From contig JACPSF010000284.1 in the NCBI GenBank assembly GCA_016193385.1, positions 6,615 through 20,932 of the forward strand: a stretch of DNA of 14,318 bases. The letters are read 5' to 3'. Made by a program: the position numbers and the translations under genes. The notes beneath the pieces are model-generated. The model saw nothing but the letters and a program-made list of their open reading frames with translations. It had not been told where the DNA came from and did no database searches. Source of the stretch: Deltaproteobacteria bacterium. Lineage in GTDB: Bacteria; Desulfobacterota_B; Binatia; UBA9968. Positions 1,990 to 14,249 of this stretch are shown piece after piece (positions within the stretch are counted from its first letter, which is position 1; every line of letters begins with the position of its first letter).

Positions 1990-2541
1990 ATGAAGCCAAC
2001 AGACGAAACCGCGGTCTTTGGCGGCGGCTGCTTCTGGTGCACTGAAGCGGTCTTTAATGAGCTTCGCGGGGTGATATCCGTCATGCCCGGGTACGCCGGC
2101 GGGAGCGTGAAGAACCCAACCTATGAACAGGTGTGCGGCGGGCGAACCGAACACGCCGAAGTCATCAGGATCGAATTCGACCCGAGCCAGATCAGCTATA
2201 AGGATCTCCTCACGGTCTTCTTTGCTACCCACGATCCGACGACGCTCAACCGTCAAGGAAGCGATGCAGGCACCCAGTATCGCTCGATCATTCTGTACGC
2301 GGGCGAGGAGCAGAAGCGGGAGGCGGAGGTATTCATCAAAGAGCTGAACGACTCTTCAGCGTTCGGCAGGCCCGTTGTAACCGAGATAAAACCGCTGGGC
2401 AAGTTCTACGAGGCCGAAGAGTACCATCGTAACTACTACGCGAACAATTCCTTTCAGCCCTACTGCCAGGTTGTCATCAGCCCCAAGCTCCACAAACTCC
2501 ACAAGCAGTTCTCCGACCTCCTCAAGTCTCACAGCAAATAG
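1990..2541 (+). CDS. msrA: Peptide-methionine (S)-S-oxide reductase MsrA
   Basis: Reduces the S-epimer of methionine sulfoxide, free or in proteins, back to methionine, using thioredoxin; cytoplasmic repair enzyme. The 183-residue product has the family signature GGGCFWCTEAVF at 11-22, with catalytic Cys14, then GYAGG at 34-38, HDPTTLNRQGSDAGTQYRS at 81-99, and a C-terminal PYCQVVISPKL segment at 157-167. Cys17 and Cys159 are the only obvious partners for regenerating the catalytic Cys. The ATG at 1990 is chosen because it puts the start about ten residues before the signature and just 4 bases after the upstream stop. The in-frame ATG at 1954 lies inside the upstream gene and adds a peptide foreign to the family. 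There is no fused MsrB domain and no msrB in the window. The tight spacing suggests it shares a transcript with the Mo-hydroxylase gene. Confidence 0.95.
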   Translation: MKPTDETAVFGGGCFWCTEAVFNELRGVISVMPGYAGGSVKNPTYEQVCGGRTEHAEVIRIEFDPSQISYKDLLTVFFATHDPTTLNRQGSDAGTQYRSIILYAGEEQKREAEVFIKELNDSSAFGRPVVTEIKPLGKFYEAEEYHRNYYANNSFQPYCQVVISPKLHKLHKQFSDLLKSHSK

Positions 2542-2562
2542 CCATCAGACAACCAAGGGTCG

Positions 2563-2598
2563 AATCCTGAAGAGCGCAGGCACCTCGCTTACAGGATT
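2563..2598. terminator. Hairpin after msrA, possible terminator
   Basis: AATCCTG (2563-2569) pairs with CAGGATT (2592-2598), and inside it AGCG (2573-2576) pairs with CGCT (2586-2589). It begins about 20 bases after the msrA stop. There is no T-tract, so a Rho-independent function is doubtful; it may be a transcript-end stabiliser or part of the repeat cluster that overlaps its right arm. Confidence 0.35.
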
Positions 2599-2649
2599 GC
2601 GAATTCCAGATTTCAAATTGCAAATGTGAGATTCGAAATGTGAAATTCC
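2594..2649. repeat. Eight-unit degenerate 7-bp tandem repeat
   Basis: The stretch divides without gaps into eight 7-mers: GGATTGC, GAATTCC, AGATTTC, AAATTGC, AAATGTG, AGATTCG, AAATGTG and AAATTCC, with consensus close to RRATTSC. The last four units also form a 14-bp tandem pair that matches at 12 of 14 positions. A perfect two-unit 7-bp repeat (TCGTATT twice, 7771-7784) occurs after the kinase gene, so 7-bp periodicity may be a habit of this genome. Function unknown. Confidence 0.6.
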
Positions 2650-2653
2650 GATG

Positions 2654-2708
2654 TTTGTCACTTTTTGTCCCTTGAAGTTAGCTTTTGTCATTTTTGGTCG
2701 CTAGAGGT
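2654..2708 (+). promoter_or_regulatory. Helically phased TTTGTC array, candidate activator binding sites
   Basis: Two 25-bp direct repeats (2654-2678 and 2684-2708) match at 20 of 25 positions and start exactly 30 bp apart. Each contains two TTTGTC-type elements 10 bp apart: TTTGTC at 2654, 2664 and 2684, and TTGGTC at 2694. All four elements would therefore lie on one face of the helix. They sit about 100-150 bp upstream of the start site expected from the sigma-54-like element at 2778-2793, a usual distance for enhancer-binding proteins. Which protein would bind is unknown. Confidence 0.45.
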
Positions 2709-2777
2709 GCGTAATCGACCACCCCTTGAACAGTCGATTCTCCTTTAAAAGCAAGAGGTTATAAAATTTCAGAAGCC

Positions 2778-2793
2778 TGGCATGGGCCTTGCA
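2778..2793 (+). promoter_or_regulatory. Sigma-54-like -24/-12 promoter element
   Basis: TGGCATGGGCCTTGCA matches the sigma-54 consensus TGGCAC-N5-TTGCA at all but one conserved position, with the required 10 bases between the GG and GC doublets. The start site would be near 2804, giving a leader of about 165 bases before the receptor gene. The caveat is that the same bases read as Gly-Met-Gly-Leu-Ala, a kinase G2-box pattern, and may be part of a decayed gene, so the match could be accidental. Confidence 0.4.
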
Positions 2794-2912
2794 TTTCTCT
2801 CTTACGCCCGTGGAGGTATAGCGATAAGCAACGGGCAACAGGAGCTCACACTTTGATCTCTTTCAAACCTTTGGGGAAAGGGGCGACCTTCTACTTCACT
2901 ATGCCGGCAGCG
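2779..2912 (+). pseudogene. Possible remnant of a histidine-kinase ATPase domain
   Basis: One frame from 2779 reads GMGLA followed by ARGGIAISNG, like the G2 box and following Gly-Gly strand of a HATPase_c domain. It reaches a stop near 2855. A second frame from 2871 reads LGKGATFYFTMPA, very like the G3 box and last strand of a sensor kinase. The motifs are in the correct order but in different frames and with abnormal spacing, as expected for a decayed 3' end. No upstream HisKA remnant was found. Chance resemblance is a real possibility. Confidence 0.3.
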
Positions 2913-2956
2913 TCTGAATCGCCTGGTACCAGCCCGAATAGCGCAGTTTTAAGGGT

Positions 2957-2963
2957 AAGGAGG
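2957..2963 (+). promoter_or_regulatory. Shine-Dalgarno sequence of the receptor gene
   Basis: AAGGAGG lies 5 bases before the GTG at 2969 and 11 before the GTG at 2975. It supports a GTG start for the receptor. The ATG at 2965 is out of frame and too close. Confidence 0.7.
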
Positions 2964-2968
2964 CATGA

Positions 2969-4963
2969 GTGGTCGTGAAGATCCTATTATCATTATTGCT
3001 CGCTTCGATCTTAGCGGTCCCTCTCTCCGGGGACATAGCCTGGTCACAAAGCCTTCCGGCAGATCTCACCAAGCTATCGATTGAGGATTTGATGAAGCTC
3101 ACGATCGAGAGCGTTTCCAAGTTTGAGCAAAAGGTGGTCGAAGCTCCGGCTTCGATTACGATCATTACGAGCGACGACATCAAAAAGTTCGGCTATCGCA
3201 ATCTGCCGGACATTTTGCGAAGCGTACGCGGGCTGTTCGTTAACTATGACCGCAACTACAATTACGTAGGTTTCAGAGGCTTCTCGCGGCCGGGCGACTA
3301 TGATACCCGGATCCTGATTTTAATTGATGGCCACCGATTGAATGAGCCCATCTACGATTCGCCGGGAACTGGCGGCGACTTCATCCTAGATGTCGATTTG
3401 ATCGATCGCGTTGAAGTCATTCGCGGGCCGAGTTCTTCCCTTTATGGCAGCAGCGCCTTCATGGGCATCATCAACGTCAAGACCAAACGCGGCAAGGACA
3501 TCGAAGGGGTCGAAGTGTCCGGCGCCGGCGGGCGCTTTAGCACTTACAACGGGCGGCTTAGCTACGGCAACAAGTTTGAAAACGGCCTTGAGCTGCTGGT
3601 CTCTGGCAGCGGGTTCGGCAGTGATGGCGACCGCCGGCTGTTTTACCAAGAATTTAACGATCCGACGACCAACAACGGTATTGCCAAGAATAAGGACGGG
3701 GAACAAGGTCAAAGTTTCTTCGGCAGTTTGTCCTACAAGGGCTTTAGCCTGGCAGCAGGATACGTCAACCGCGAGAAGGATGTTCCGACGGGGTCGTTTG
3801 AGACGGTGTTTAACGCTCACAGCAGCACGACCGATAGGAAGGGATTCGCCGATTTGAAGTACGAGCATGAGTTTGCCGGAAATCTGGGTCTTAAGGCGCG
3901 AACTTATTACGACAACTATTATTATAAGGGACTGGCCGATTACGACTATGGGTTGGCGAACCTGGTCCGTAACAAGGATTTCGGCTGGGCGAACACGGTC
4001 GGCACGGAGCTGCAAATCACCAAGACTCTATTCGATAAGCATAAGGTAATTTTCGGCGGGGAGTTCCAATATGTTCTGCGGCAGGACCAGAAGAATTACG
4101 ACATAGAGGTTTATCTCGATGAGCGGAACAGCAGCCGCAACTGGGCGATCTACTTACAGGATGAGTATGAAATCCTCAAAGGGCTACGCCTCACCGCCGG
4201 CGTGCGCTTCGATCACTTCAGTCTGTCGGACAATAGCGCGGTAAGCCCGCGCGTTGGGTTGGTCTATCTGCCGTTCGACAAGACGGTGATCAAGCTGCTC
4301 TACGGTCACGCCTTCCGCGCGCCCAATGCGTTTGAACTGTTTTATCAGGTCCCATCCAATTTTTTGCCGAGTAATGGCTTGGGGCCTGAGCGAACCCGAA
4401 CCGTCGAACTTCTCGTGCAGCAGTACCTTGGTTTTAATCTCTGGGGCGCCGCTAATCTCTATTATCAGAAGAGCAAAGATATCATTACCCAAATCGTTGA
4501 ACCTGTGAGTGGGCTGCCGATGTTCCAAAACGCGGGTGAGGTCGCCCAAAAGGGCGTTGAATTCGAATTGGAAGGTAAGTGGCAAAACGGTGTCCGCGGC
4601 CGGATGAGTTACGCGGTGCAGCGGACCGAAGATGTCGACACCAAGTTAAGACTTACCAACTCGCCGGTTCACCTGGCGAAGTTTAACGGCGTGGTGCCGT
4701 TGATGGCTGACAAGTTATTTCTCGGCTTGGAGGAGCAATACACCAGCGGCCGGAAGACTCTAGCAGGAAATCAAATCGGTGGCTTTTGGGTGACCAACGT
4801 CACGCTGTTTAATCAAAGGCTTTTCAAAGGATTGGATTTGTCGGCGAGCATTTACAATTTATTTGGCAAAAAGTATAGCGACCCCGGATCGGGAGAGCAC
4901 GAGCAAGACGCTATAAGACAAGATGGTCGCAGTTTTCGGTTCAAACTGACGTTCAGGTATTGA
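2969..4963 (+). CDS. TonB-dependent outer-membrane receptor
   Basis: A 22-strand beta-barrel gated by an N-terminal plug, driven by TonB-ExbBD to import scarce ligands or relay their presence. The 664-residue product starts with a short Lys-containing n-region and a hydrophobic stretch (about 5-25), giving a Sec signal peptide with cleavage probably near AWS-QS. The plug spans about 55-173 and includes FRGF (102-105) and the classic IRGPSSSLYGS (151-161). The barrel fills the rest and ends in the aromatic-terminated strand RFKLTFRY expected for BAM-dependent insertion. I see no canonical TonB box; the segment LSIEDLMKLTIESVSKFEQ sits where one would be expected. The ligand is not identifiable. 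It is followed by yfiR-like and kinase genes in the same direction, which suggests a sensing role as well as transport. By eye its GC content is lower than that of the flanking genes. Confidence 0.93.
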   Translation: MVVKILLSLLLASILAVPLSGDIAWSQSLPADLTKLSIEDLMKLTIESVSKFEQKVVEAPASITIITSDDIKKFGYRNLPDILRSVRGLFVNYDRNYNYVGFRGFSRPGDYDTRILILIDGHRLNEPIYDSPGTGGDFILDVDLIDRVEVIRGPSSSLYGSSAFMGIINVKTKRGKDIEGVEVSGAGGRFSTYNGRLSYGNKFENGLELLVSGSGFGSDGDRRLFYQEFNDPTTNNGIAKNKDGEQGQSFFGSLSYKGFSLAAGYVNREKDVPTGSFETVFNAHSSTTDRKGFADLKYEHEFAGNLGLKARTYYDNYYYKGLADYDYGLANLVRNKDFGWANTVGTELQITKTLFDKHKVIFGGEFQYVLRQDQKNYDIEVYLDERNSSRNWAIYLQDEYEILKGLRLTAGVRFDHFSLSDNSAVSPRVGLVYLPFDKTVIKLLYGHAFRAPNAFELFYQVPSNFLPSNGLGPERTRTVELLVQQYLGFNLWGAANLYYQKSKDIITQIVEPVSGLPMFQNAGEVAQKGVEFELEGKWQNGVRGRMSYAVQRTEDVDTKLRLTNSPVHLAKFNGVVPLMADKLFLGLEEQYTSGRKTLAGNQIGGFWVTNVTLFNQRLFKGLDLSASIYNLFGKKYSDPGSGEHEQDAIRQDGRSFRFKLTFRY

Positions 4964-4976
4964 TGAGAACGGCCAT

Positions 4977-5026
4977 AGCGCGGCGAGAGTGCGATTTCTG
5001 TGACGTTTATTTACGGCCGCGCTTTT
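4977..5026 (+). terminator. GC-rich hairpin with short T-run between receptor and yfiR-like gene
   Basis: AGCGCGGC (4977-4984) is perfectly complementary to GCCGCGCT (5016-5023), followed by TTT. The 31-base loop is long and the T-run short. It begins 13 bases after the receptor stop, so it may be a partial terminator or RNA-processing site that lowers expression of the two downstream sensor genes relative to the receptor. Confidence 0.4.
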
Positions 5027-5073
5027 AGACGAGAAACTCCGCGCGTGAACTTGTGTCGGCATTAGTGTCGGAG

Positions 5074-5685
5074 ATGGTTAACCTCAACCCGGATAGTGAG
5101 TCAAGAAAACGACCCGGCCGGTTTTTTGGATTCTGCGCTCAGGTGCGGGCGATTCTGTGCCTCCTGGCATGGCTCTCGGCTGGCTCATTGCATGTGATCT
5201 ACCCGGCCTCCTTCTCGGAATACCAGATCAAAGCGGCGTTCTTGTATAACTTCGCAAAATTCGTGGATTGGCCGTCGACAGCATTTCGTGCCGGTCAGAA
5301 CTCTCTGGTCATTTGTGTGGTGGGAGAGGACCCCTTTGGCGCCGCGCTCGACGAGCCGATCATAGGACAATCAATCGGGGGAAGGAACCTGGTCGTCAGA
5401 CGGCTCAAACAGATTCACCGCGACGAGACCTGTCACCTCGCCTTTATAAGCCGGTCCGAGAAAGACAAGCTCGGGCAGCTTTTGAGCGTCATCAAGGGCT
5501 CACCATTCCTAACAGTCGGGGACGACGGTAATTTCATCGACCAGGGCGGCATGATCAACCTCGTCGTCGAGGACAGAAAAGTCCGTTTTGAGGTTAATCT
5601 TGAGGCGGTAGATCGGGCGGGACTTAAGATCAGCCCCGAGCTGCTGCGGCTGGCAAAGAGTGTCCGCGAAAGGAGAAAACTCTAG
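5074..5685 (+). CDS. YfiR family (DUF4154) periplasmic protein
   Basis: The Pseudomonas YfiR protein is a periplasmic repressor of the membrane diguanylate cyclase YfiN, whose sensor is a CHASE8 domain. This 203-residue homologue has a basic n-region (RKRPGRF) and hydrophobic segment (about 24-45) forming an export signal. A near-complete DUF4154 domain follows: SEYQIKAAFLYNFAKFVDWP (48-67), VICVVGEDPFG (79-89), CHLAFISRSEK (120-130), FLTVGDDGNFIDQGGMINLV (145-164) and LKISPELLRLAKSV (184-197). Mature cysteines are only C81 and C120, 39 residues apart. The start is uncertain: ATG 5074 is used, while in-frame GTGs at 5053 and 5065 would add up to 7 residues; none has a convincing ribosome site. 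It is one base from the TTG start proposed for the CHASE8 kinase, the strongest hint that it regulates that kinase. Confidence 0.92.
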   Translation: MVNLNPDSESRKRPGRFFGFCAQVRAILCLLAWLSAGSLHVIYPASFSEYQIKAAFLYNFAKFVDWPSTAFRAGQNSLVICVVGEDPFGAALDEPIIGQSIGGRNLVVRRLKQIHRDETCHLAFISRSEKDKLGQLLSVIKGSPFLTVGDDGNFIDQGGMINLVVEDRKVRFEVNLEAVDRAGLKISPELLRLAKSVRERRKL

Positions 5686-5686
5686 C

Positions 5687-7732
5687 TTGCAGAGATTCGG
5701 CGACATATCCATCAGGCGGAAGCTCACTCTGATCATCATGGCCACAAGCGGCGCGGCTCTCCTGCTGGCCGGCGCGAGTTTTCTTGTCTATGACTCGGTC
5801 GCGTTCCCGCAAGCCGTTGCCCAGAATCTCTCTTCCCTGGCCGTCGTGATTGGCAACAATAGCGCGGCGGCTATCGTCTTCGACGATGAAAACGCCGCCA
5901 ACGAGATATTAGCTGCGCTCCGAGCTACGCCCAATGTCGTCTCGGGCTACATTTATCGGAAAGATCGGACCGTTTTCGCGCGCTATGCGCGCGCGGGTTG
6001 GATGGCGCCGCCGCAGTGCCCGACACAATTCCACGATTATCGCGTGGTCGACAAGCACGTGGAGGTGTGCCGCCCCATTCTATTCCGCGGAGAAATGTTA
6101 GGGACCATTGGCCTAAAGTCCGATCTACGCGAATGGCAGGCGCGTCTGTGGAACTATGGCCAGATCGTTGTCGCCATCCTGGCATTATCGCTTGTCGTGG
6201 CATTTGCTGTGTCGGCGGTACTGCAGCGCGTTGTGTCCACCCCGCTCCTTTCCCTGGCAAGGTTGGCGAGAAACGTGTCCAACGAGCACGACTATTCGGT
6301 CCGGGCGTCTAAAACGAGCCAGGATGAAATAGGCGTTTTGGTCGATGGGTTTAATGACATGCTGGGTCAAATTCAACAGCACTTAAAGCGCGTCACTGCA
6401 CTGCACGATATTAACCTGGCCGTGACTTCGACTTTGGATCTCCGCGATGTCCTGAATATCCTGTTCGACAAGATAGATCTGTTTCTTTCCTATTCCGTCG
6501 CCACAATCGGGCTGTTGAACAAACAGACCGGACTACTGGAGCCCGTGGCCTGTCGCAATCTTGACGAAAAGGAGTGGAGAGCCGAGGAGTGGAAGGGTGG
6601 GCGCGGCTCCGCCAATGAAGTATTGAAGGCCAAGGAGCCTCTGTTGATCCCAAACTGTCAAACCGATCCCCGCATCCGTGACCCCGAATTTTATCGCAGG
6701 AACGGGTTGGTTTCTTATCTTGGGGTACCCCTGATATTCAAGGACGAGATTCTGGGCGTCCTTTCCTTCCACACGAAAAAAGAGTATGAGTTCCACAACG
6801 ATCAGATCGAGTTTCTCTCCACGCTGGCAGGCCAAGCGGCTATAGCTATTAACAATTCCCGGCTCTATGAGGAGATGACAGAGCTAGCGGCCGATCTATC
6901 AAAGTCCAATAAAGTAAAGGATGAGTTTCTAAGCGTCATGTCACATGAGCTTAGGACGCCGCTCAATGTGGTCATGGGCTATGTCGCGATGATCAAAGAC
7001 GGTCTATACGGATCCATCAGTCCGGAACAACAAGAGGCCTTAGAGAAAGTGATGAGCAGAGCCAGGGATCAGTTGACGATGATCACCGGCATCTTACACG
7101 CTACGCAAATCGAGGCGGAGCGAGTCGGCGCGGAGGTGCAACCATTCAGCCTTCGAGATTTTCTCGACGATCTTAGATCCAGTTACGAGGTCCGCTTGGA
7201 GAAGGATCTGGCCATTCACTGGAACTACTCCCCGGATCTGCCCGCAATTACAACCGACCGCGAAAAGCTTAAGCACATTCTTCAGAATCTCATTAACAAC
7301 GCGATTAAATTTACCGAGAAGGGACGCGTGGAGGTTTCGGCGCGCGTCGTGGCAGCCGGGGAACCAGGAGCAGCACCGCTCCCGCTCGCTGACGCTTCGC
7401 GTGAGCACAATGCGGCTCCGTTCGGCACGGGAACGGACAATCGACTCTGTTGGGCGGAGTTCACCGTGGCTGACACGGGGATCGGGATTCCGGAGAGCGC
7501 CCTCCTTCACATCTTCGATAAGTTTCATCAGGCAGACAGTTCGGAGACCAGAGCTTACGGCGGCGTGGGACTGGGGCTTTACATAGTGAAGCAGTATGCA
7601 GCGCTTTTGGGCGGCAGCGTTACAGTAAAAAGCCGTCCTGGTAAAGGTTCGACTTTCACGCTTGTGATACCTTACGGAACGCCTGAGCCGGAGGTCTGGA
7701 CTCAGGAAGCAAGTAAACAACAAGGTGCTTGA
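5687..7732 (+). CDS. CHASE8-HAMP-GAF sensor histidine kinase
   Basis: Inner-membrane sensor kinase of 681 residues from the TTG at 5687, which follows AAGGAG (5670-5675) by 11 bases and the yfiR stop by one. A GTG at 5660 would overlap yfiR and lacks a clear ribosome site. Domain order: TM1 about 12-35; periplasmic CHASE8 about 43-150 (NNSAAAIVFDDENAANEILA is typical); TM2 about 158-180; HAMP about 181-234; GAF about 238-395; HisKA with SHELRTP, phospho-acceptor His420; HATPase_c with N box NLINNAIKF (534-542), G1 DTGIGIP (596-602), G2 GVGLGL (626-631) and G3 GKGSTF (652-657). All catalytic motifs are intact, so it should be active. An unusual insert of about 30 residues (557-587) lies between strands just before G1 and contains a palindrome-encoded peptide. 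There is no receiver domain, and no response regulator gene in the window. Confidence 0.94.
   Translation: MQRFGDISIRRKLTLIIMATSGAALLLAGASFLVYDSVAFPQAVAQNLSSLAVVIGNNSAAAIVFDDENAANEILAALRATPNVVSGYIYRKDRTVFARYARAGWMAPPQCPTQFHDYRVVDKHVEVCRPILFRGEMLGTIGLKSDLREWQARLWNYGQIVVAILALSLVVAFAVSAVLQRVVSTPLLSLARLARNVSNEHDYSVRASKTSQDEIGVLVDGFNDMLGQIQQHLKRVTALHDINLAVTSTLDLRDVLNILFDKIDLFLSYSVATIGLLNKQTGLLEPVACRNLDEKEWRAEEWKGGRGSANEVLKAKEPLLIPNCQTDPRIRDPEFYRRNGLVSYLGVPLIFKDEILGVLSFHTKKEYEFHNDQIEFLSTLAGQAAIAINNSRLYEEMTELAADLSKSNKVKDEFLSVMSHELRTPLNVVMGYVAMIKDGLYGSISPEQQEALEKVMSRARDQLTMITGILHATQIEAERVGAEVQPFSLRDFLDDLRSSYEVRLEKDLAIHWNYSPDLPAITTDREKLKHILQNLINNAIKFTEKGRVEVSARVVAAGEPGAAPLPLADASREHNAAPFGTGTDNRLCWAEFTVADTGIGIPESALLHIFDKFHQADSSETRAYGGVGLGLYIVKQYAALLGGSVTVKSRPGKGSTFTLVIPYGTPEPEVWTQEASKQQGA
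7388..7406. repeat. REP-like palindrome inside the kinase gene
   Basis: GCTGACGC and GCGTGAGC flank a TTC loop and pair at 7 of 8 positions. The hairpin is read in frame as part of PLADASREH within the extra loop of the kinase ATPase domain. Short palindromes that insert in frame and encode peptides resembling LADARGS or LADASRE occur, to my recollection, in many genomes, so this may be a repeat element captured by the gene. No second copy is visible here. Confidence 0.4.
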
Positions 7733-7950
7733 GGGTTGGCGCTCCCGGTCTCTCATAGAGTGGTGTCCTATCGTATTTCGTATTTCTTTCCCCGATCTAG
7801 CAGGCTGTCGTCCTGCCTCTTAAGCCTCGCTGCAGGTGGCGCTAATTGGGGGCACCGCCCTCCTGCTGCGGCAAACCGCAAAAGCCCAGTTTGACAATCA
7901 TCGCTGGAAACGTTTTATTCCCGAGCTGTGCGCAGGATTGCGAATCGGTG

Positions 7951-8811
7951 ATGGGAACAGAGTTTTTCGCTTTATTTGCAGCGTTGGGTTGGGCGGTTGA
8001 GGCGATCCTGGTGCGCAAAGGCGCTCAATACGCCAGTGTCTCTCTGGCTGTGCTCATGAGCTTCTTCGTCACTGCGCTCGTACTCTGGACCGTCAACTGG
8101 TGGTCTCTCCCCTTCAGCCTGCTTTATTCGCCCGCTACCTTCTACTTCATCCTGAGCGGGCTGATCCAACCCGCCATCGTTCGTTTCCTCCACTACACGG
8201 GCATCGTCCGACTCGGGGCATCCCGCGCCGCTCCTGTGCGTGGGATTGCGCCTCTCTTCGCCATCGTAGTCGCGTTCTTTTTCTTAGGCGAGCGTCCCGG
8301 CTTCTCCGTTTATGTAGGAGCGGTCTTGAGCGTCGCAGGCCTCTGGCTGATCTCGTATCGGCGCGAAGGCGAAACGGCTTGGAAAACCATCGATCTCCTT
8401 TTTCCGCTGGGAGCCGCGCTCCTGACCGCGGTCTCCCAAAATATCCGCAAGACCGGCCTTCTCATTCTTCCCAACCCGTATATTGCCGCCGCGGTGACTA
8501 CGACGACCTCACTCGTCGTCTTTCTCCTGAGCCTCATTCTTACCGGGCAGATCCGCTCGATTAAAATGGACAAGAGATGCCTGCCCTCTTATGGCAGCGC
8601 CGCTGTGACATCCACCGCGGCGCAACTTTTCACCTTTATCGCCCTGAGCAAGGGACAGGTCTCCGTGGTCGTCCCGCTGGTCAACGCCAATCCTCTTTTT
8701 ATCGTCTTCCTCAGCGCGCTTTTTCTCAAAGACCTGGAGAAGGTCACCGGACTCGTGGTCACAGGCGCGCTCCTGATCGTCGGCGGGGTCGCGCTGATCA
8801 CCTATCGTTAA
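7951..8811 (+). CDS. EamA/DMT family transporter
   Basis: Inner-membrane protein of 286 residues with about ten hydrophobic segments in two EamA repeats, the usual length and architecture of drug/metabolite transporter superfamily exporters. The first repeat ends with GASRAAPVRGIAPLFAIVVA and FFFLGER (about 89-115), and the second contains ALSKGQVSVVVPLVNANPLF (about 231-250) and FLKD; these match the Pro-rich TM and conserved acidic motif of the family. Substrate unknown; members export amino acids, sugars or other small metabolites. ATG 7951 is chosen because the first TM begins at once (FFALFAALGWAVEAIL). An upstream in-frame TTG at 7846 would add a Cys- and Pro-rich, non-family leader. 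A transcript of its own is likely: 218 bases separate it from the kinase gene, and a hairpin follows its stop. Confidence 0.9.
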   Translation: MGTEFFALFAALGWAVEAILVRKGAQYASVSLAVLMSFFVTALVLWTVNWWSLPFSLLYSPATFYFILSGLIQPAIVRFLHYTGIVRLGASRAAPVRGIAPLFAIVVAFFFLGERPGFSVYVGAVLSVAGLWLISYRREGETAWKTIDLLFPLGAALLTAVSQNIRKTGLLILPNPYIAAAVTTTTSLVVFLLSLILTGQIRSIKMDKRCLPSYGSAAVTSTAAQLFTFIALSKGQVSVVVPLVNANPLFIVFLSALFLKDLEKVTGLVVTGALLIVGGVALITYR

Positions 8812-8824
8812 GCGAGGAATTGTC

Positions 8825-8858
8825 TTCAGATCTCTACCGCTGGCGGCAGAGATCTGAA
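8825..8858. terminator. Bidirectional hairpin between convergent genes
   Basis: TTCAGATCTCT (8825-8835) pairs perfectly over 11 bp with AGAGATCTGAA (8848-8858), and CCG/CGG pairs extend it inside. It begins 13 bases after the transporter stop and ends 21 bases before the end of the opposing BNR gene, the expected place for a shared terminator. Neither side has a strong T-tract. Confidence 0.6.
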
Positions 8859-8879
8859 ACTAAACCAACAAGAGAAGAT

Positions 8880-9980
8880 TCAGGCGGCGGATGCCCGAAG
8901 ATTGTGATGATGGTCCGCTTTGGAGACCGGACCAATCCCCTGGATGATCTTCTGCCAGCTCTCCCCCTCATCGGCGCTGTAGAAGACCTCTCCATCCGTG
9001 GTGCCGGCAAACAGGGCAAAGCCGCCATTCCAGACGTCCATAGCCAGCGCTTCGATGTTTCCTCGAATGTGCTCGGGCAGCCCCTCGTTCAAGATCTCCC
9101 AGGTCCTGCCGCCGTCCCTGCTGCGGGCAATGCGCGCATCGGCGCTGCGCGTCTTTCTCCAGGTGCCGGGACCGGTCTTTGCGCCTGCGGTAAAAATCAC
9201 GCTGCCGTTGCGCGGATGCACGAGGAGCGGGTCCACATATCCGATCCTGAAATCCCTAGGCGTAAGGCTCACCCAGCTCTCGCCGCCATCCCGACTGACG
9301 CATACGCCGGCTATGTCCGTCGGCGCGCCATTGGTGGTGGGCATGACCAGATAGACCGTTCCCGGATCCGAAAAGGGAACCAGTACCCGGTGCGCATCCG
9401 GATTCAGGCCTGAAGCCGTCTTCCAGCTCCTCCCTCCGTCTTCGCTCTTTAGAAAGCCTCCCACTTCGACCGCGGCATAGATAATGTCGGAACGCCTAGG
9501 GTCAAAGGCGAGACTTTTGACATGCGCTTGGTGCGGTGAGCCAGGAAAGGTCCACTTCTCTACGCCCGGCACCTGGCGCAAACCGGAGAGCTCGCTCCAG
9601 CTCTGTCCCAGGTCATCGCTATAGAAGAGGTGGGCCGGCTGGGTTCCGGCATAGAGTCTGGGCCGTCCCCCGGCCTCCCGGACGGCCAGCGTGTAGATCT
9701 CACGGTTTCCAATGCCCTGGTCTCTCCTTTCCCAGTTCCGACCTAAATCCTTGCTTGCATAAAGCGCTTCGCCATAGGTGCCGGCAAACAGGGTCCGGCT
9801 CCTGGACTCGTAAAGGAGCGAGCTGATATGCTCGCCGGGTAGAAGCCTCTCTTGCGGGCTCCACGAACCGTGCCGGCGTTCGCAAGAAAAAATCCCCTCG
9901 GCTGTGCCGACCAGGAGCGTGCCCCTGGGCGACTCACCCACCGTGGTCGTCTGGCCTCCGGGCGATAAACAGATTACCAT
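8880..9980 (-). CDS. BNR/Asp-box repeat beta-propeller protein (sialidase-like fold)
   Basis: A 366-residue protein made of repeated beta-propeller blades with at least six Asp-box motifs of the S-x-D-x-G-x-x-W type: SKDLGRNW, SDDLGQSW, SEDGGRSW, SRDGGESW, SRDGGRTW and SADEGESW, spaced roughly 40-70 residues apart. Each blade also shows a LFAGT or LYAGT strand. This is the fold of sialidases, Ycf48/HCF136 and VPS10-type propellers. The Arg triad of true sialidases is not obvious, so enzyme activity should not be assumed from the sialidase-like annotation that this family often carries. No signal peptide or TM is visible, so it is probably cytoplasmic. The start is an ATG preceded, on the minus strand, by GAGAGGAGAGGAG. 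It is divergent from the tctC operon with about 137 bp between the starts, so the two may share regulation. Biological role unknown. Confidence 0.85.
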   Translation of the reverse strand: MVICLSPGGQTTTVGESPRGTLLVGTAEGIFSCERRHGSWSPQERLLPGEHISSLLYESRSRTLFAGTYGEALYASKDLGRNWERRDQGIGNREIYTLAVREAGGRPRLYAGTQPAHLFYSDDLGQSWSELSGLRQVPGVEKWTFPGSPHQAHVKSLAFDPRRSDIIYAAVEVGGFLKSEDGGRSWKTASGLNPDAHRVLVPFSDPGTVYLVMPTTNGAPTDIAGVCVSRDGGESWVSLTPRDFRIGYVDPLLVHPRNGSVIFTAGAKTGPGTWRKTRSADARIARSRDGGRTWEILNEGLPEHIRGNIEALAMDVWNGGFALFAGTTDGEVFYSADEGESWQKIIQGIGPVSKADHHHNLRASAA

Positions 9981-10020
9981 GGACTCCTCTCCTCTCGTGT
10001 ATCTAAACTTACCCAGGATT

Positions 10021-10035
10021 TTGACCCCTCGTCAA
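10021..10035. promoter_or_regulatory. Inverted repeat in the divergent intergenic region
   Basis: TTGAC (10021-10025) and GTCAA (10031-10035) are inverted with a 5-base spacer, between the divergent BNR and tctC genes. It could be an operator for a dimeric regulator acting on either side. The arms are short, so chance is not excluded. Confidence 0.25.
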
Positions 10036-10086
10036 GCCAAAAATCCGCGCAGCACTGTCCTTGCGCCGCCCTGGGGGTTCAACTAC

Positions 10087-10092
10087 TATAAT
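10087..10092 (+). promoter_or_regulatory. Probable -10 box of the tctCAB operon
   Basis: A perfect TATAAT lies 25 bases upstream of the tctC ATG, giving an expected start site near 10099 and a very short leader. The best -35 match, TTGCGC at 10061-10066, has a 20-base spacer, longer than optimal, so the promoter may need an activator. Confidence 0.5.
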
Positions 10093-10104
10093 TCTTAAAC
10101 TCAC

Positions 10105-10113
10105 GGGAGGTGA
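10105..10113 (+). promoter_or_regulatory. Shine-Dalgarno sequence of tctC
   Basis: GGGAGGTGA ends 4 bases before the ATG at 10118. It settles that ATG as the start rather than the in-frame TTG at 10061, which lies upstream of the -10 box and so outside the transcript. Confidence 0.8.
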
Positions 10114-10117
10114 CGGT

Positions 10118-11122
10118 ATGCGGCAACTAACAGCGGTGCTTTTTTTTCTGGCGAGCCTCTGGATTCCGGGCTTCTCCCACGGGGCCGCCTATTATGAAGG
10201 AAAGACGCTGACGATCGTGGTAGGCTATAAGCCCGGCGGGGGATATGATCGCTATGCGCGGCTTTTCGGGAAGTATCTGCCCAGACATATTCCCGGAAGT
10301 CCCACAGTCGTGATCCAGAACATGCCCGGGGCGAACAGCATCATCTCAGCCAACCATATCTACAGCGTGGCCAAGCCTGACGGCCTCACGATCGGGACCT
10401 TTAATAATGGCCTCGTCATCGCCCAACTCACGAAGGTAGAGGGGGTAAGGTTCGACCTTACGAAATTAGCCTGGATCGGAAGCGCCGCGAGCGACGCGGC
10501 CATCCTCGCCGTGCGCGCGGACCTCCCCTACAAGACCGCCGATGATCTGCGCAAGGTCAAGGAAGCGGTGGTGATCGGAGCCACCGGACCGGGAAGCTCT
10601 ACTTACGACCTGCCCGCTCTGCTGAAAGAATTTGCGGGCCTCAATCTGAAACTCGTCCCCGGTTACTCTTCAAGCTCTGACGTCATGCTCGCCATCGAGC
10701 GAAAAGAGGTGGACGGGCGCGCTGGCTCGTACGCTTCCATCTTGCCCTTCATAGAGCGCGGATTGGTGCGTCCCGTGGTCCGCACGCGCGTGCCGGTGCC
10801 GGAGATCGAGAAGCTCCCCGTGGACGAAGACCTGGCAACCACCGCCAAGGGAAGAGCGATCATGGCGGTGCGCTCGACGCCGGAAATCATCTACCGGCCG
10901 TACGCGGCTCCTCCGGGAACGCCGGCTGAGACGCTGAAGATCCTGCGCGATGCTTTTGCCAGAGCGGCCAAAGATAAAGAGCTTCTGGCCGAAGCCAAGA
11001 AGACCAAGCTGCCGATCGACTACGTGACAGCGGAGGACGCCCTGAAGGTTGTTCAGGAGGTTCTTCGCCAGCCGCCGGAGATGGCACAGGAGATTACCAA
11101 ATACATAAAATTCGGAGATTAG
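10118..11122 (+). CDS. tctC: TctC/Bug family periplasmic solute-binding receptor of a TTT transporter
   Basis: Periplasmic receptor that captures a carboxylate and hands it to the TctAB membrane complex. The 334-residue product has a signal peptide (MRQLTAVLFFLASLWIPGFSHGA, cleavage likely near position 23), then YYEGKTLTIVVGYKPGGGYD (25-44), the Pro-Gly-Gly ligand loop of Bug proteins, IQNMPGANSIISANHIY (67-83) and AKPDGLTIGTFN (86-97). Length and motif order are normal for the family. Bug proteins commonly bind carboxylates or amides such as citrate, glutamate, nicotinate or aromatic acids; the ligand here cannot be assigned. First gene of a tight operon: tctA starts 3 bases after its stop. 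In the classical Salmonella system the order is tctCBA; here it is C-A-B. Confidence 0.92.
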   Translation: MRQLTAVLFFLASLWIPGFSHGAAYYEGKTLTIVVGYKPGGGYDRYARLFGKYLPRHIPGSPTVVIQNMPGANSIISANHIYSVAKPDGLTIGTFNNGLVIAQLTKVEGVRFDLTKLAWIGSAASDAAILAVRADLPYKTADDLRKVKEAVVIGATGPGSSTYDLPALLKEFAGLNLKLVPGYSSSSDVMLAIERKEVDGRAGSYASILPFIERGLVRPVVRTRVPVPEIEKLPVDEDLATTAKGRAIMAVRSTPEIIYRPYAAPPGTPAETLKILRDAFARAAKDKELLAEAKKTKLPIDYVTAEDALKVVQEVLRQPPEMAQEITKYIKFGD

Positions 11123-11125
11123 ATC

Positions 11126-12640
11126 TTGCTCGACGCTTTTATCCAGGGACTTACCACCATCTTTCAATGGCAGACTTTTCTCATCATGCTCCTGGGGATC
11201 TTCCTGGGTTTCTGGGTTGGCCTTCTGCCGGGGTTAGGGGGATCGACCACTCTCGCCCTCATGCTCCCCTTTATTTACAAGATGACCCCGGTCGAGGCGT
11301 TCGCCTTCTTGCTGGGAATGCACTCCGTTGTCGCCACTACAGGAGACATCACCTCCGTCCTCTTCGGCGTTCCCGGCGAGGGAACCACGGCTGCCACGAT
11401 CCTGGACGGCCATGCCATGGCCAAGAAGGGGGAAGCAGGTAGGGCTCTGGGAGCGGCGCTGATGAGTTCCCTTGTCGGCGCCCTCATCGGCGCGTTTGCG
11501 CTGGCCGTTTCGATCCCCGTGGTGCGCCCCCTCGTCCTCACGTTCGGCGCACCGGAGCTCTTTATGCTCGCCGTCGTGGGCATCGCTTTCATCTCATCCC
11601 TCAGCGGGCAGGGAGGACGGGCCCTCCTGCGGGGCGCCCTCGGCGGCCTTTTGGGCCTTCTCATCGCCATGGTGGGCCAAGATCCTCAGGCAGGTGTCCA
11701 GCGTTTCACTTTCGGTCAGCTCTATCTCTGGGGTGGCCTCGATCTGGTTCCTGTCCTGGTCGGACTCTTCGCGATCCCCGAGATTATCGATCTCGCAATC
11801 CGGGGAACAGCCATTGCCGGGGAGCTTCCCAAGGGGGACCTGAGCAGCGGGGCTTGGGAAGGAATCAAGGATACCTTCCGCCATTTTTGGCTCACGGTCC
11901 GTTGCAGCCTCATCGGCACCTTCATCGGCATCATGCCCGGTCTTGGTGGAGGCGTGGCCCAGTGGATCTCTTACGGCCATGCAGTGCAAAGCGCCCGGGA
12001 TGACGAGGAGCGGCGCGGTTTCGGGAAGGGCGATGTGAGAGGGGTACTCGGGCCGGGGGCAGCCAACAATTCTAAGGAAGGAGGATCGCTCGTCCCCACG
12101 ATCGCATTCGGGGTTCCGGGGAGTTCGGCCATGGCCATTCTCCTCGGCGCCTTCTTCCTCCAGGGAATCATGCCCGGCCCGGATATGCTCGACAAGTATC
12201 TCGTCGTCACGTTTTCCATGGTCTGGACGATGGTGGTCGCCAATATCATCACCGTGGCCGCCAGCCTGATCTTCCTTAATCAACTGGCCAAGCTCACCCT
12301 GGTGCGCGGCTCCATTTTGATTCCTTTCATCCTCTTTCTTGCCTTTATTGGCGCCTATACTTCCAATAACCATCTGGGAGACTTGCTGGTTTTGCTCGTC
12401 TTCGGTCTTCTCGGTTATGTGATGATCTGCAGCGGCTGGCCTCGGGCGCCGCTGGTTCTCGGGTTCGTCTTGGGCAAGATCGCCGAGAACAACTTCTACA
12501 TCTCCACCATTCGATACGGCTCGTCTTGGCTTCTTCGGCCGATGGTCCTGATCCTGATTGTTTTGACTGTGGTCGTCCTTCTCTATCCCTTCATCCGCTT
12601 CCACAAAAGAGGAGCCTCGGCGAGAGACTCGACGGCATGA
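11126..12640 (+). CDS. tctA: TctA family large membrane subunit of a TTT transporter
   Basis: Large membrane subunit (504 residues, about 12 TM segments) forming the substrate path of the tripartite tricarboxylate transporter, driven by an ion gradient rather than ATP. Family motifs: GLLPGLGGSTTLALMLPF (33-50) and its internal counterpart GIMPGLGGGVAQWISYG (about 270-286), LFGVPGEGTTAATILDGHAM (79-98), GEAGRALGAAL (102-112), and FGVPGSSAMAILLGAFFLQG in the second half. The two PGLGG motifs reflect an ancient internal duplication. The TTG start at 11126 has GGAG 8 bases upstream and follows the tctC stop by 3 bases. Its stop overlaps the tctB start in an ATGA, which indicates translational coupling. 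Confidence 0.95.
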   Translation: MLDAFIQGLTTIFQWQTFLIMLLGIFLGFWVGLLPGLGGSTTLALMLPFIYKMTPVEAFAFLLGMHSVVATTGDITSVLFGVPGEGTTAATILDGHAMAKKGEAGRALGAALMSSLVGALIGAFALAVSIPVVRPLVLTFGAPELFMLAVVGIAFISSLSGQGGRALLRGALGGLLGLLIAMVGQDPQAGVQRFTFGQLYLWGGLDLVPVLVGLFAIPEIIDLAIRGTAIAGELPKGDLSSGAWEGIKDTFRHFWLTVRCSLIGTFIGIMPGLGGGVAQWISYGHAVQSARDDEERRGFGKGDVRGVLGPGAANNSKEGGSLVPTIAFGVPGSSAMAILLGAFFLQGIMPGPDMLDKYLVVTFSMVWTMVVANIITVAASLIFLNQLAKLTLVRGSILIPFILFLAFIGAYTSNNHLGDLLVLLVFGLLGYVMICSGWPRAPLVLGFVLGKIAENNFYISTIRYGSSWLLRPMVLILIVLTVVVLLYPFIRFHKRGASARDSTA

Positions 12641-13119
12641 AAACCGTGCTCAATCTTCGCTTCCTGCTGGCCCTTACCGTTGCGGTAGCCGCGCTCTATG
12701 CCCTTTACGCATCTTCGCACTGGTCCTTGCGACCCGCGCTATTCCCCAGGGTAATCGGAATTCCCCTTCTTTTCCTGGCCCTCACCGAAATGCTCCTGAG
12801 CGTATGGGGCGCAGAAAAACAAACAGAGGGTCACGCAGTGGATTTTCAGTTGACGACGGATGTCGATCCGGTGGTAGCGAGGAAGAGAACGACATCAATC
12901 TTGGCCTGGATCCTTGGGTTTTTGGTTCTGATCGTCTTGGTCGGGTTCCCGTTCGCGGTGCCGCTCTTTGTCTTTCTCTACCTCAGGATAGCGGGTAGAG
13001 AAGGATGGGTTCTGACCGTTCTGCTAACGGCAGTCTCATGGCTTTTCATGGAGGGGCTCTTCAACCGGCTCCTCCACCTCCCCTTTCCTCAGGGCTGGCT
13101 CTTCTTGCTCTGGAGCTAA
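12637..13119 (+). CDS. tctB: TctB family small membrane subunit of a TTT transporter
   Basis: Small, poorly conserved four-TM subunit needed by TctA. The 160-residue protein has hydrophobic segments near 8-25, 38-58, 86-118 (two segments) and 124-160, and the family pattern ALFPRVIGIPLLFLAL (34-49) in the first half. The start is the ATG at 12637 that overlaps the tctA stop (ATGA). A longer in-frame start at 12526 lies inside tctA and is rejected. It ends the operon: the region after it is degraded, and a 6-bp hairpin (TCTGGC 13141-13146 with GCCAGA 13151-13156) lies just downstream, without a T-tract. Confidence 0.88.
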   Translation: MKTVLNLRFLLALTVAVAALYALYASSHWSLRPALFPRVIGIPLLFLALTEMLLSVWGAEKQTEGHAVDFQLTTDVDPVVARKRTTSILAWILGFLVLIVLVGFPFAVPLFVFLYLRIAGREGWVLTVLLTAVSWLFMEGLFNRLLHLPFPQGWLFLLWS

Positions 13120-13323
13120 TGTACCGCTGGGGCGCAAGGTTCTGGCGTCCGCCAGAGAAAAAGTCAGTGAGCTTTTCGGCGAATTATTGGAGGATGAGTA
13201 AAATCTCGGCCGCTCGGCGGAGAGTGTCGCCGATAAGCGTGAACATCGTCGGAAAACTCTGCGCTCAAGGCATTGGAAATCACCGAGGGTTCACTCGAAG
13301 AGGTGGCTGAGCACGATGAATGA
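13120..13323 (+). pseudogene. Possible decayed small gene upstream of chrA
   Basis: No intact gene fits here, yet two pieces read like protein. One frame gives GRKVLASAREKVSELFGELL and ends at a stop at 13199-13201. Another gives SALKALEITEGSLEEVAEHD, then Glu and the stop at 13321-13323, which overlaps the chrA ATG at 13316 as in a coupled operon. Stops (13234, 13240) break the second frame upstream. I infer a frameshifted remnant of a small acidic, helical protein, but the family is not recognised and chance is possible. Confidence 0.3.
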
Positions 13324-14249
13324 GAGGGCGGACACGGTCGCTCAGGCGAGGGCAAACCGATCTAGATCGGAAGGATCCCTTAGCGAACTCGCTCGACTAT
13401 TCCTGAAACTCGGAACCATCGCCTTCGGTGGCCCCGCCGCCCACATCGCGATGATGGAAGAAGAGGTGGTGCGGCGGCGCGGTGGCTTGACCACGAGCGG
13501 TTCCTCTAACGGCGCTTATTGGCGCAACCGTGATGGTGTTATTTTTCTTTGGGATTAACGAGATTTTTCTCCTTTTCGCGGCTGGTTTCATGGTGATGGC
13601 CTTGAACAACCTCTGGCGTGGCTGGAAACAAGGGGCATGCACAACAGCAGGATTGCCTATCCTCTGGATCAGTTCAGCGCAAGCGGCCGGTAGCTCAACC
13701 ACAGCAATGACAGCAGTAGCTCCTATAAGCCTTGTGAAATTAACTCTCTTTTTTCTGAAAATTGGCTCGGTTCTCTTTGGCAGTGGCTACGTGCTTCTCG
13801 CGTTCCTCCGGGCCGATCTCGTAGACCGCTGGCACTGGCTCACCGACCAACAGCTTCTCGACGCCATTGCCATAGGGCAATTTACTCCCGGTCCCGTCTT
13901 CACCACGGCAACCTTTATCGGTTATGTGGTGGCCGGTTCGCCTGGCGCCGTGCTGGCGACGATTGGCATTTTTCTTCCCTCTTTTGTGTTTGTTATGGCA
14001 ACTAGCCCGCTGATCCCGCGCCTTCGTCGTTCTACCTGGGCTGCCGGCTTTCTGGACGGAGTTAACGTGGCTTCCCTGGGTTTAATGGCAACGGTTACGT
14101 GGCAGCTGGGGCGCGCCGCCTTGATCGATTGGTTTACACTGGCGTTGGCTTTGATTTCAGCCGCCTTGGTCTTCCGTTTTAGGATCAACTCTGCCTGGTT
14201 GGTTCTCGGCGGGGGAATATTCGGATGGTTGTATAAAGTGCTGGCGTAG
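13316..14249 (+). pseudogene. chrA: Chromate transporter chrA, frameshifted with internal deletion
   Basis: ChrA exports chromate and normally has two homologous CHR halves. The start at 13316 gives ELARLFLKLGTIAFGGPAAH and MMEEEVVRRRG, typical of the N-terminal half. At about 13481-13483 one base is missing: the next frame continues correctly as WLDHERFL (13483-13506) and then hits a stop. Directly after, a third frame reads ALIGATVMVLFFFGINEIFL and FAAGF, which belongs about 100-120 residues further on in an intact protein, so the NLIPGPNSTE region is deleted. From there the frame is open to 14249 and the second half is well kept: LFFLKIGSVLFGSGYVLLAF, LLDAIAIGQFTPGPVFTTA and PGAVLATIGIFLPSFVFV. 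Translation could only restart at weak sites such as the GTG at 13530, which has no clear ribosome site. An assembly error is the alternative. Confidence 0.85.

Follow-up and report, generated by a model that had tools for sequence, protein, structure and literature searches.

We analyzed a 14,318-nucleotide stretch of DNA (the window; positions 6,615 to 20,932 of contig JACPSF010000284.1) from a Deltaproteobacteria bacterium assembly, GCA_016193385.1, in which the gene for a TonB-dependent outer membrane receptor is followed on the same strand by genes for a YfiR protein and a CHASE8 histidine kinase (Table 1). The receptor gene starts with GTG. Its product contains a plug (PF07715, 3.7e-22; residues 56-167) and a barrel (PF00593, 6.8e-43; residues 251-631), and its AlphaFold model has a mean predicted local distance difference test (pLDDT) score of 91. 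No STN domain was detected; Pfam returned the plug, the barrel, and a sub-threshold match to OMP_b-brl_4 (E 0.001) alone. The second gene begins with GTG, replaced by ATG at the same position in the relative L001, and ends with TAG (5683-5685). Its product matches DUF4154 with an E value of 3.1e-50 and has the YfiR fold. The third gene encodes CHASE8 (PF17152, 6.5e-18), HAMP (PF00672), GAF, HisKA, and HATPase_c domains.

Table 1. Features of the receptor-YfiR-kinase row, in window coordinates.
Feature	Coordinates	Strand	Basis
TonB-dependent receptor, 664 aa	2969..4963	+	Pfam, AlphaFold model, alignment A3
Pre-plug motif PADLTKLSIEDLMKLTIESVS, receptor residues 30-50	3056..3118	+	Position-specific scoring matrix; N-terminal to plug
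YfiR/DUF4154 periplasmic protein, 210 aa	5053..5685	+	Pfam PF13689
YfiR residues 191-203, densest top couplings to CHASE8	5623..5661	+	Co-variation
Histidine kinase, CHASE8-HAMP-GAF-HisKA-HATPase	5687..7732	+	Pfam; TTG start
CHASE8 periplasmic domain	5810..6115	+	Pfam PF17152
AAIVF, the AAxVF (YfiR-binding) motif of CHASE8	5867..5881	+	Alignment
HisKA phospho-acceptor domain	6917..7120	+	Pfam; H429 nearly invariant in alignment A2
HATPase_c catalytic domain	7256..7675	+	Pfam

The original prediction, made from the sequence alone, had placed these three genes in a row with the last two a single base apart, and both the Pfam domains and the gene junction bear this out. A mechanically compiled list of open reading frames (ORFs) starts the kinase at GTG 5660, within yfiR. 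However, TTG 5687, one base past the yfiR stop codon, is the better start: a GGAG within the last codons of yfiR precedes it by 11 nt, and the TAG-C-TTG junction is identical in L001, the closest relative among the matches listed (YfiR 84% identical).

The YfiR and kinase pair resembles YfiR and its cyclase partner in YfiBNR of Pseudomonas aeruginosa. The window YfiR scores 163.9 against the NCBIfam model NF053591 (TOL_0243-type YfiR; cut-off 125), and the kinase scores 233.1 bits against NF053592 ("HK near YfiR-like"; cut-off 194). AAIVF of the kinase aligns with AAVVF of Escherichia coli DgcN; the main text of PMC3375315 describes AAxVF as the YfiR-binding motif, and 255 of the 257 CHASE8 domains that we aligned have its phenylalanine. 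On the YfiR side, the P. aeruginosa patch F162, E163, I169, and L183 corresponds to F179, E180, V186, and L200, with valine in place of I169. In 257 relatives, this C-terminal patch retains the phenylalanine in 199, the glutamate in 114, and L200 in 178. The cysteine pair C88/C127, equivalent to C71/C110, is present, and the C145-C152 disulfide pair is missing in an alignment with E. coli YfiR.

Co-variation between YfiR and CHASE8, newly described here and sought with the Pseudomonas residues in mind, is concentrated at the contact known from Pseudomonas genetics. For a strictly pre-set block of residues, the mean coupling gave a p value of 0.02, and the top three couplings gave 0.07. No fusions of YfiR to CHASE8 or to the receptor were present among the ORFs examined. 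The contact between YfiR and CHASE8 that had been anticipated thus finds co-variation around the predicted site as well as the AAxVF motif itself, and a YfiBNR-like mode of action for this half of the row is well supported.

To survey the gene neighborhood, we used an alignment of 40 YfiR homologues to collect loci L001-L080, the best 80 of 550 confirmed stretches, chosen by likeness to the query. Their record titles name Acidobacteria, Nitrospirae, Verrucomicrobia, Deltaproteobacteria, Betaproteobacteria, Ignavibacteriae, Armatimonadota, Planctomycetota, and others. Profiles built for this analysis found the full order (receptor upstream and CHASE8 gene downstream on the same strand, within 800 nt) in 56 of these best 80 of 550. 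We also searched genome samples drawn evenly per group, each of which includes its YfiR-positive center genome. NF053591 matched 25/198, 26/149, 53/299, 24/148, and 22/194 genomes in five phyla and 31/229 in one class (E 1e-12 for the 25/198 sample and 1e-20 for the others), or about one in every six to nine genomes. Among 119 short loci from the first four of these samples (best-scoring matches with about 1.4 kb on each side), the full order was found in 25/30, 18/30, 21/30, and 16/29. Forty more matches, retrieved manually and mostly lower-scoring, showed it in 12 cases, and in eleven others the receptor lies 2.7 to 2.9 kb downstream, past the CHASE8 gene. Because divergent and downstream orders exist, we dropped the notion that the receptor is always upstream.

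The partners were then counted around 177 distinct YfiR genes for which long context was available (L001-L080, L208-L247, L325-L337, and L399-L438; neither the window nor the 3.4-kb loci are included). A TonB-dependent receptor lies within 4 kb of 146 of them, 21 have none despite sufficient room, and 10 are too near a contig end. A CHASE8 gene is found within 800 nt of 142. Both partners lie within 800 nt in 98 cases, and in another 19 the CHASE8 gene is this close and the receptor lies within 4 kb. Sixteen have a CHASE8 gene and room but no receptor, five have neither partner, and in 29 a receptor but no CHASE8 gene lies within 800 nt, so the receptor and YfiR also pair without a kinase gene. 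Restricted to CHASE8-linked YfiR genes with enough context (nine contig-end cases excluded), a receptor lies within 4 kb in 117 of 133. We further examined 20 YfiR-positive genomes chosen for their long contigs, with at least 217 plug matches in total. A plug lies within 4 kb of at least 29 of 32 YfiR genes, compared with 0.7 expected; the plugs of one genome (G647) were not entered, and its YfiR is counted as a miss. By these counts, the gene row is widely conserved, far beyond chance, and the receptor as its usual third member across phyla is new here. The proposal of a single module in which a TonB receptor takes the position of YfiB therefore agrees with the neighborhood survey.

YfiR-linked receptors share a segment, DLTxLSLE[DE]LMxIxVTSVS, that precedes the plug. 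A position-specific scoring matrix of 21 columns, trained on 68 receptors of L001-L080, recovered it in 67; the exception (L048) has lost its N-terminus at a contig end. We then applied the matrix to held-out loci L208-L337, leaving out beforehand receptors with unreadable N-termini, repeats, and far receptors with less than 3 kb of room. Scores of at least 10 were obtained for 38 of 42 receptors near a YfiR gene and for 3 of 71 far from one (Fisher p 6e-22), where the far set, a non-random draw, consisted of the best 30 plug matches plus hand-chosen stretches. At a score of at least 20, the counts were 33/42 and 3/71. One far carrier (L276) proved to adjoin a divergent YfiR gene when its context was lengthened (L293), and another (L243) is a second receptor within a YfiR locus. 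The low-scoring receptors near YfiR include two motif variants (L242 and L266) and two without the motif (L238 and L247). By sequence, then, the pre-plug motif is typical of YfiR-linked receptors; it is newly recognized here and allows such receptors to be recognized by sequence alone.

The third far carrier, at L278 (5865-7934), is an orphan receptor with no YfiR or CHASE8 match in the 12 kb examined, and is perhaps served in trans. In multi-copy genomes (G1020, with nine YfiR genes, and G1157, with five), most receptors score below 10, some keeping SLExL-like cores and some none. The nine YfiR matches of G1020 (of the same class as G599; loci L399-L406), several of them close to receptors with a drifted or missing motif, form a natural set for the study of pairing specificity.

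The position of the motif is that of the TonB box, as placed by comparison with CirA, or, further out, of the STN domain in other receptors. In the AlphaFold model, the region N-terminal to the plug is a disordered stretch followed by a short helix, which spans receptor residues 38-42 at modest confidence (block pLDDT 52 for residues 31-40 and 77 for 41-50). The NCBIfam receptor model NF053590 (TOL_0244 receptor) starts at this same segment. However, the window receptor scores 160.1 against it and falls far short of the cut-off of 645, which 4 of 10 receptors tried do (L005, L414, L430, and L438, all beside YfiR). The window receptor is thus, by its profile score, a member of a second subfamily with the same pre-plug motif. 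NF053590 is named after TOL_0244 of Thalassolituus oleivorans, whose neighbor by number, TOL_0243, is YfiR-like by its NCBIfam name. Passages of PMC6304351 describe TOL_0244 as sevenfold up on n-C28 alkane compared with Tween 80 and as 40.3% similar to OmpS of Alcanivorax dieselolei, cited there as required for alkane detection. An alkane ligand is not transferable from these proteins to the window receptor, which belongs to another subfamily.

We examined co-variation between the receptor N-terminus and YfiR in 135 pairs, obtained from the 157 YfiR genes whose nearby receptor was readable by removing motif scores below 8 (19 receptors) and repeats. The pre-set block gave p 0.44. Motif columns account for 27 of the top 100 couplings, compared with 15.5 expected, and receptor M42 couples to YfiR L143, L200, and F179. 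The top couplings, however, are located elsewhere. As a control, three re-pairings were examined, one of which peaked about as high (5.6 versus 5.7). Because the pre-set block was null, the top couplings lie elsewhere, and re-pairing reached a similar height, we claim no receptor-YfiR contact from co-variation.

Taken together, gene order, conservation, domain make-up, motif association, and YfiR-CHASE8 co-variation are the basis on which we regard the receptor, YfiR, and the kinase as probably one trans-envelope relay that passes an outside signal to an inner-membrane kinase. The receptor would be the outer membrane sensor, and its short flexible N-terminal arm (LSxEDLM, before the TonB-box position) would face the periplasm and handle YfiR. 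As a periplasmic repressor, YfiR would use its C-terminal helix and its hydrophobic patch to dock on the kinase CHASE8 domain at the AAxVF region, as is thought for YfiR and YfiN. When ligand binds and TonB acts on the receptor, the grip of the arm on YfiR would change, the pool of free YfiR would drop, and the kinase would switch. In this scheme, the receptor-YfiR contact, the ligand, and the phosphotransfer partners are putative, the titration of YfiR by ligand passage or plug movement in the original prediction is hypothetical, the receptor half may work like its YfiBNR counterpart, and repression of the kinase by YfiR is presumed by analogy.

What is known of inward signaling by TonB receptors mainly concerns STN domains and anti-sigma factors. 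A wider reading, which we put forward tentatively as a fair possibility short of a probable one, is that widespread STN-less TonB receptors use a minimal N-terminal peptide (LSLEDLM, directly ahead of the TonB box) to capture or release YfiR, so that TonB-driven cycling, not envelope stress, would set the activity of CHASE8 kinases and cyclases; sensors of hydrophobic substrates such as TOL_0244, and perhaps OmpS, would be members. If true, this YfiR route would supply an input for many orphan CHASE8 kinases and a function for many orphan TonB receptors.

The same module could operate with the opposite sign, the arm releasing YfiR upon ligand binding or YfiR activating the kinase. Sequence fixes no sign, and kinases having phosphatase activity often read inversely. 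We nevertheless consider this rather unlikely given the precedent of YfiBNR, in whose published description YfiR represses and the outer membrane partner relieves. It is also unlikely that YfiR and the kinase signal alone, in which case YfiR would sense redox or a ligand in the periplasm and the receptor would be either a target of regulation or an ordinary nutrient importer beside its regulator. The 16 of 133 CHASE8-linked YfiR genes that have enough context but no receptor within 4 kb would fit such an arrangement, as would the failure to find receptor-YfiR co-variation at the pocket, the retained C88/C127 pair, and the YfiNR pairs without YfiB described in the main text of Malone 2012 (PMC3375315). 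Mere import, however, does not need an N-terminal motif that tracks YfiR linkage, and the 29 of 177 YfiR genes that have a close receptor and no CHASE8 gene equally near speak for a tie between receptor and YfiR. Chance adjacency or hitch-hiking is very improbable: nothing was found in its favor, the EamA and tripartite tricarboxylate transporter (Tct) genes common to the window and L001 showing close kinship only, and against it stand the plug counts near YfiR and the recurrence of the row in loci titled with many phyla.

Pfam found no response regulator among the 12 window ORFs scanned, and neither did a home-made REC profile run over all window ORFs of at least 70 aa. In 66 CHASE8 proteins (from the window and 65 named loci, after removal for size of the five longest of 71), Pfam identified CHASE8 in 65, HAMP in 64, HATPase in 56, HisKA in 52, REC in 34, Hpt in 13, GGDEF in 3, and EAL in 2. 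With the REC profile, 30 of 72 loci have a regulator as the next same-strand gene past the CHASE8 gene, and 16 of 72 encode, within three genes, a REC protein that bears a GGDEF motif (6 of the 72 end at a contig edge). The expectation that the regulator is encoded elsewhere is borne out in the window and L001. It does not extend to the family, as many relatives have REC within the kinase itself or in the gene that follows. Since REC-GGDEF regulators, newly noted here, occur behind the kinase, its output in relatives may often lead back to cyclic di-GMP (c-di-GMP). In many relatives, the phosphoryl group could pass to a REC-GGDEF protein with c-di-GMP again the end product; in the window lineage, the regulator would be located elsewhere.

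Downstream of the kinase, the window (7846-13119) and L001 (5111-8160) both carry the EamA and Tct genes, possible targets of the module that are seen in these two close genomes only. In the window, a gene for a BNR/sortilin-like repeat protein (8880-9980, minus strand) separates EamA from the Tct genes, and L001 passes from EamA to TctC without such a gene. A chromate transporter (ChrA) gene at 13316-14249 is split across two overlapping frames, the first piece matching the domain start only, and is therefore either broken or affected by an assembly error. A promoter scan of 2400-8900 returned 1 site compared with 3.6 expected and was not used; Rfam gave no match.

FecA and FpvA are TonB-dependent transducers with an anti-sigma partner. 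Likewise, the window receptor is an outer membrane receptor that would signal through its N-terminal periplasmic part. However, they use an STN signaling domain, whereas the arm of the window receptor is a motif of roughly 20 residues with no STN found, and no FecR-type, anti-sigma, or sigma genes were detected by Pfam among the 12 window ORFs.

YfiBNR of P. aeruginosa and YfiR-DgcN-YfiB of E. coli K-12 share with the window the YfiR fold, AAxVF, the C-terminal patch of YfiR, and a CHASE8-HAMP partner encoded directly after yfiR. In contrast, their GGDEF output is replaced by HisKA and HATPase, as the original prediction had stated for the cyclase; the swap itself appears in the main text of a 2012 publication (PMC3375315). 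Their operon encodes the OmpA-like lipoprotein YfiB where the window has the receptor, with no OmpA family among the 12 ORFs scanned, and the C145/C152 disulfide of their YfiR is absent from the window YfiR. Judged on these sequence features (output, YfiB, and one disulfide), the window row falls outside YfiBNR proper. Classic YfiR (NF053586) was matched in 3 of 229 genomes at E 1e-15, none over the cut-off, and E. coli K-12 is the single classic example used.

In the NCBIfam trio NF053590, NF053591, and NF053592, the window YfiR and kinase pass the cut-offs and the receptor does not; the names of these models show that the neighborhood is already familiar to curators. Among the open-licence PubMed Central (PMC) papers searched, we found no description of a TonB receptor as a YfiR or CHASE8 partner, and the main text of Malone 2012 (PMC3375315) contains no occurrence of TonB. 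That main text reports divergent Yfi systems whose output is a sensor kinase, Hpt, or GGDEF-EAL, so a YfiR-CHASE8 core that feeds a kinase is already known. These systems have the same YfiR and YfiN-type periplasmic domain, and the receptor and its motif are the parts added here.
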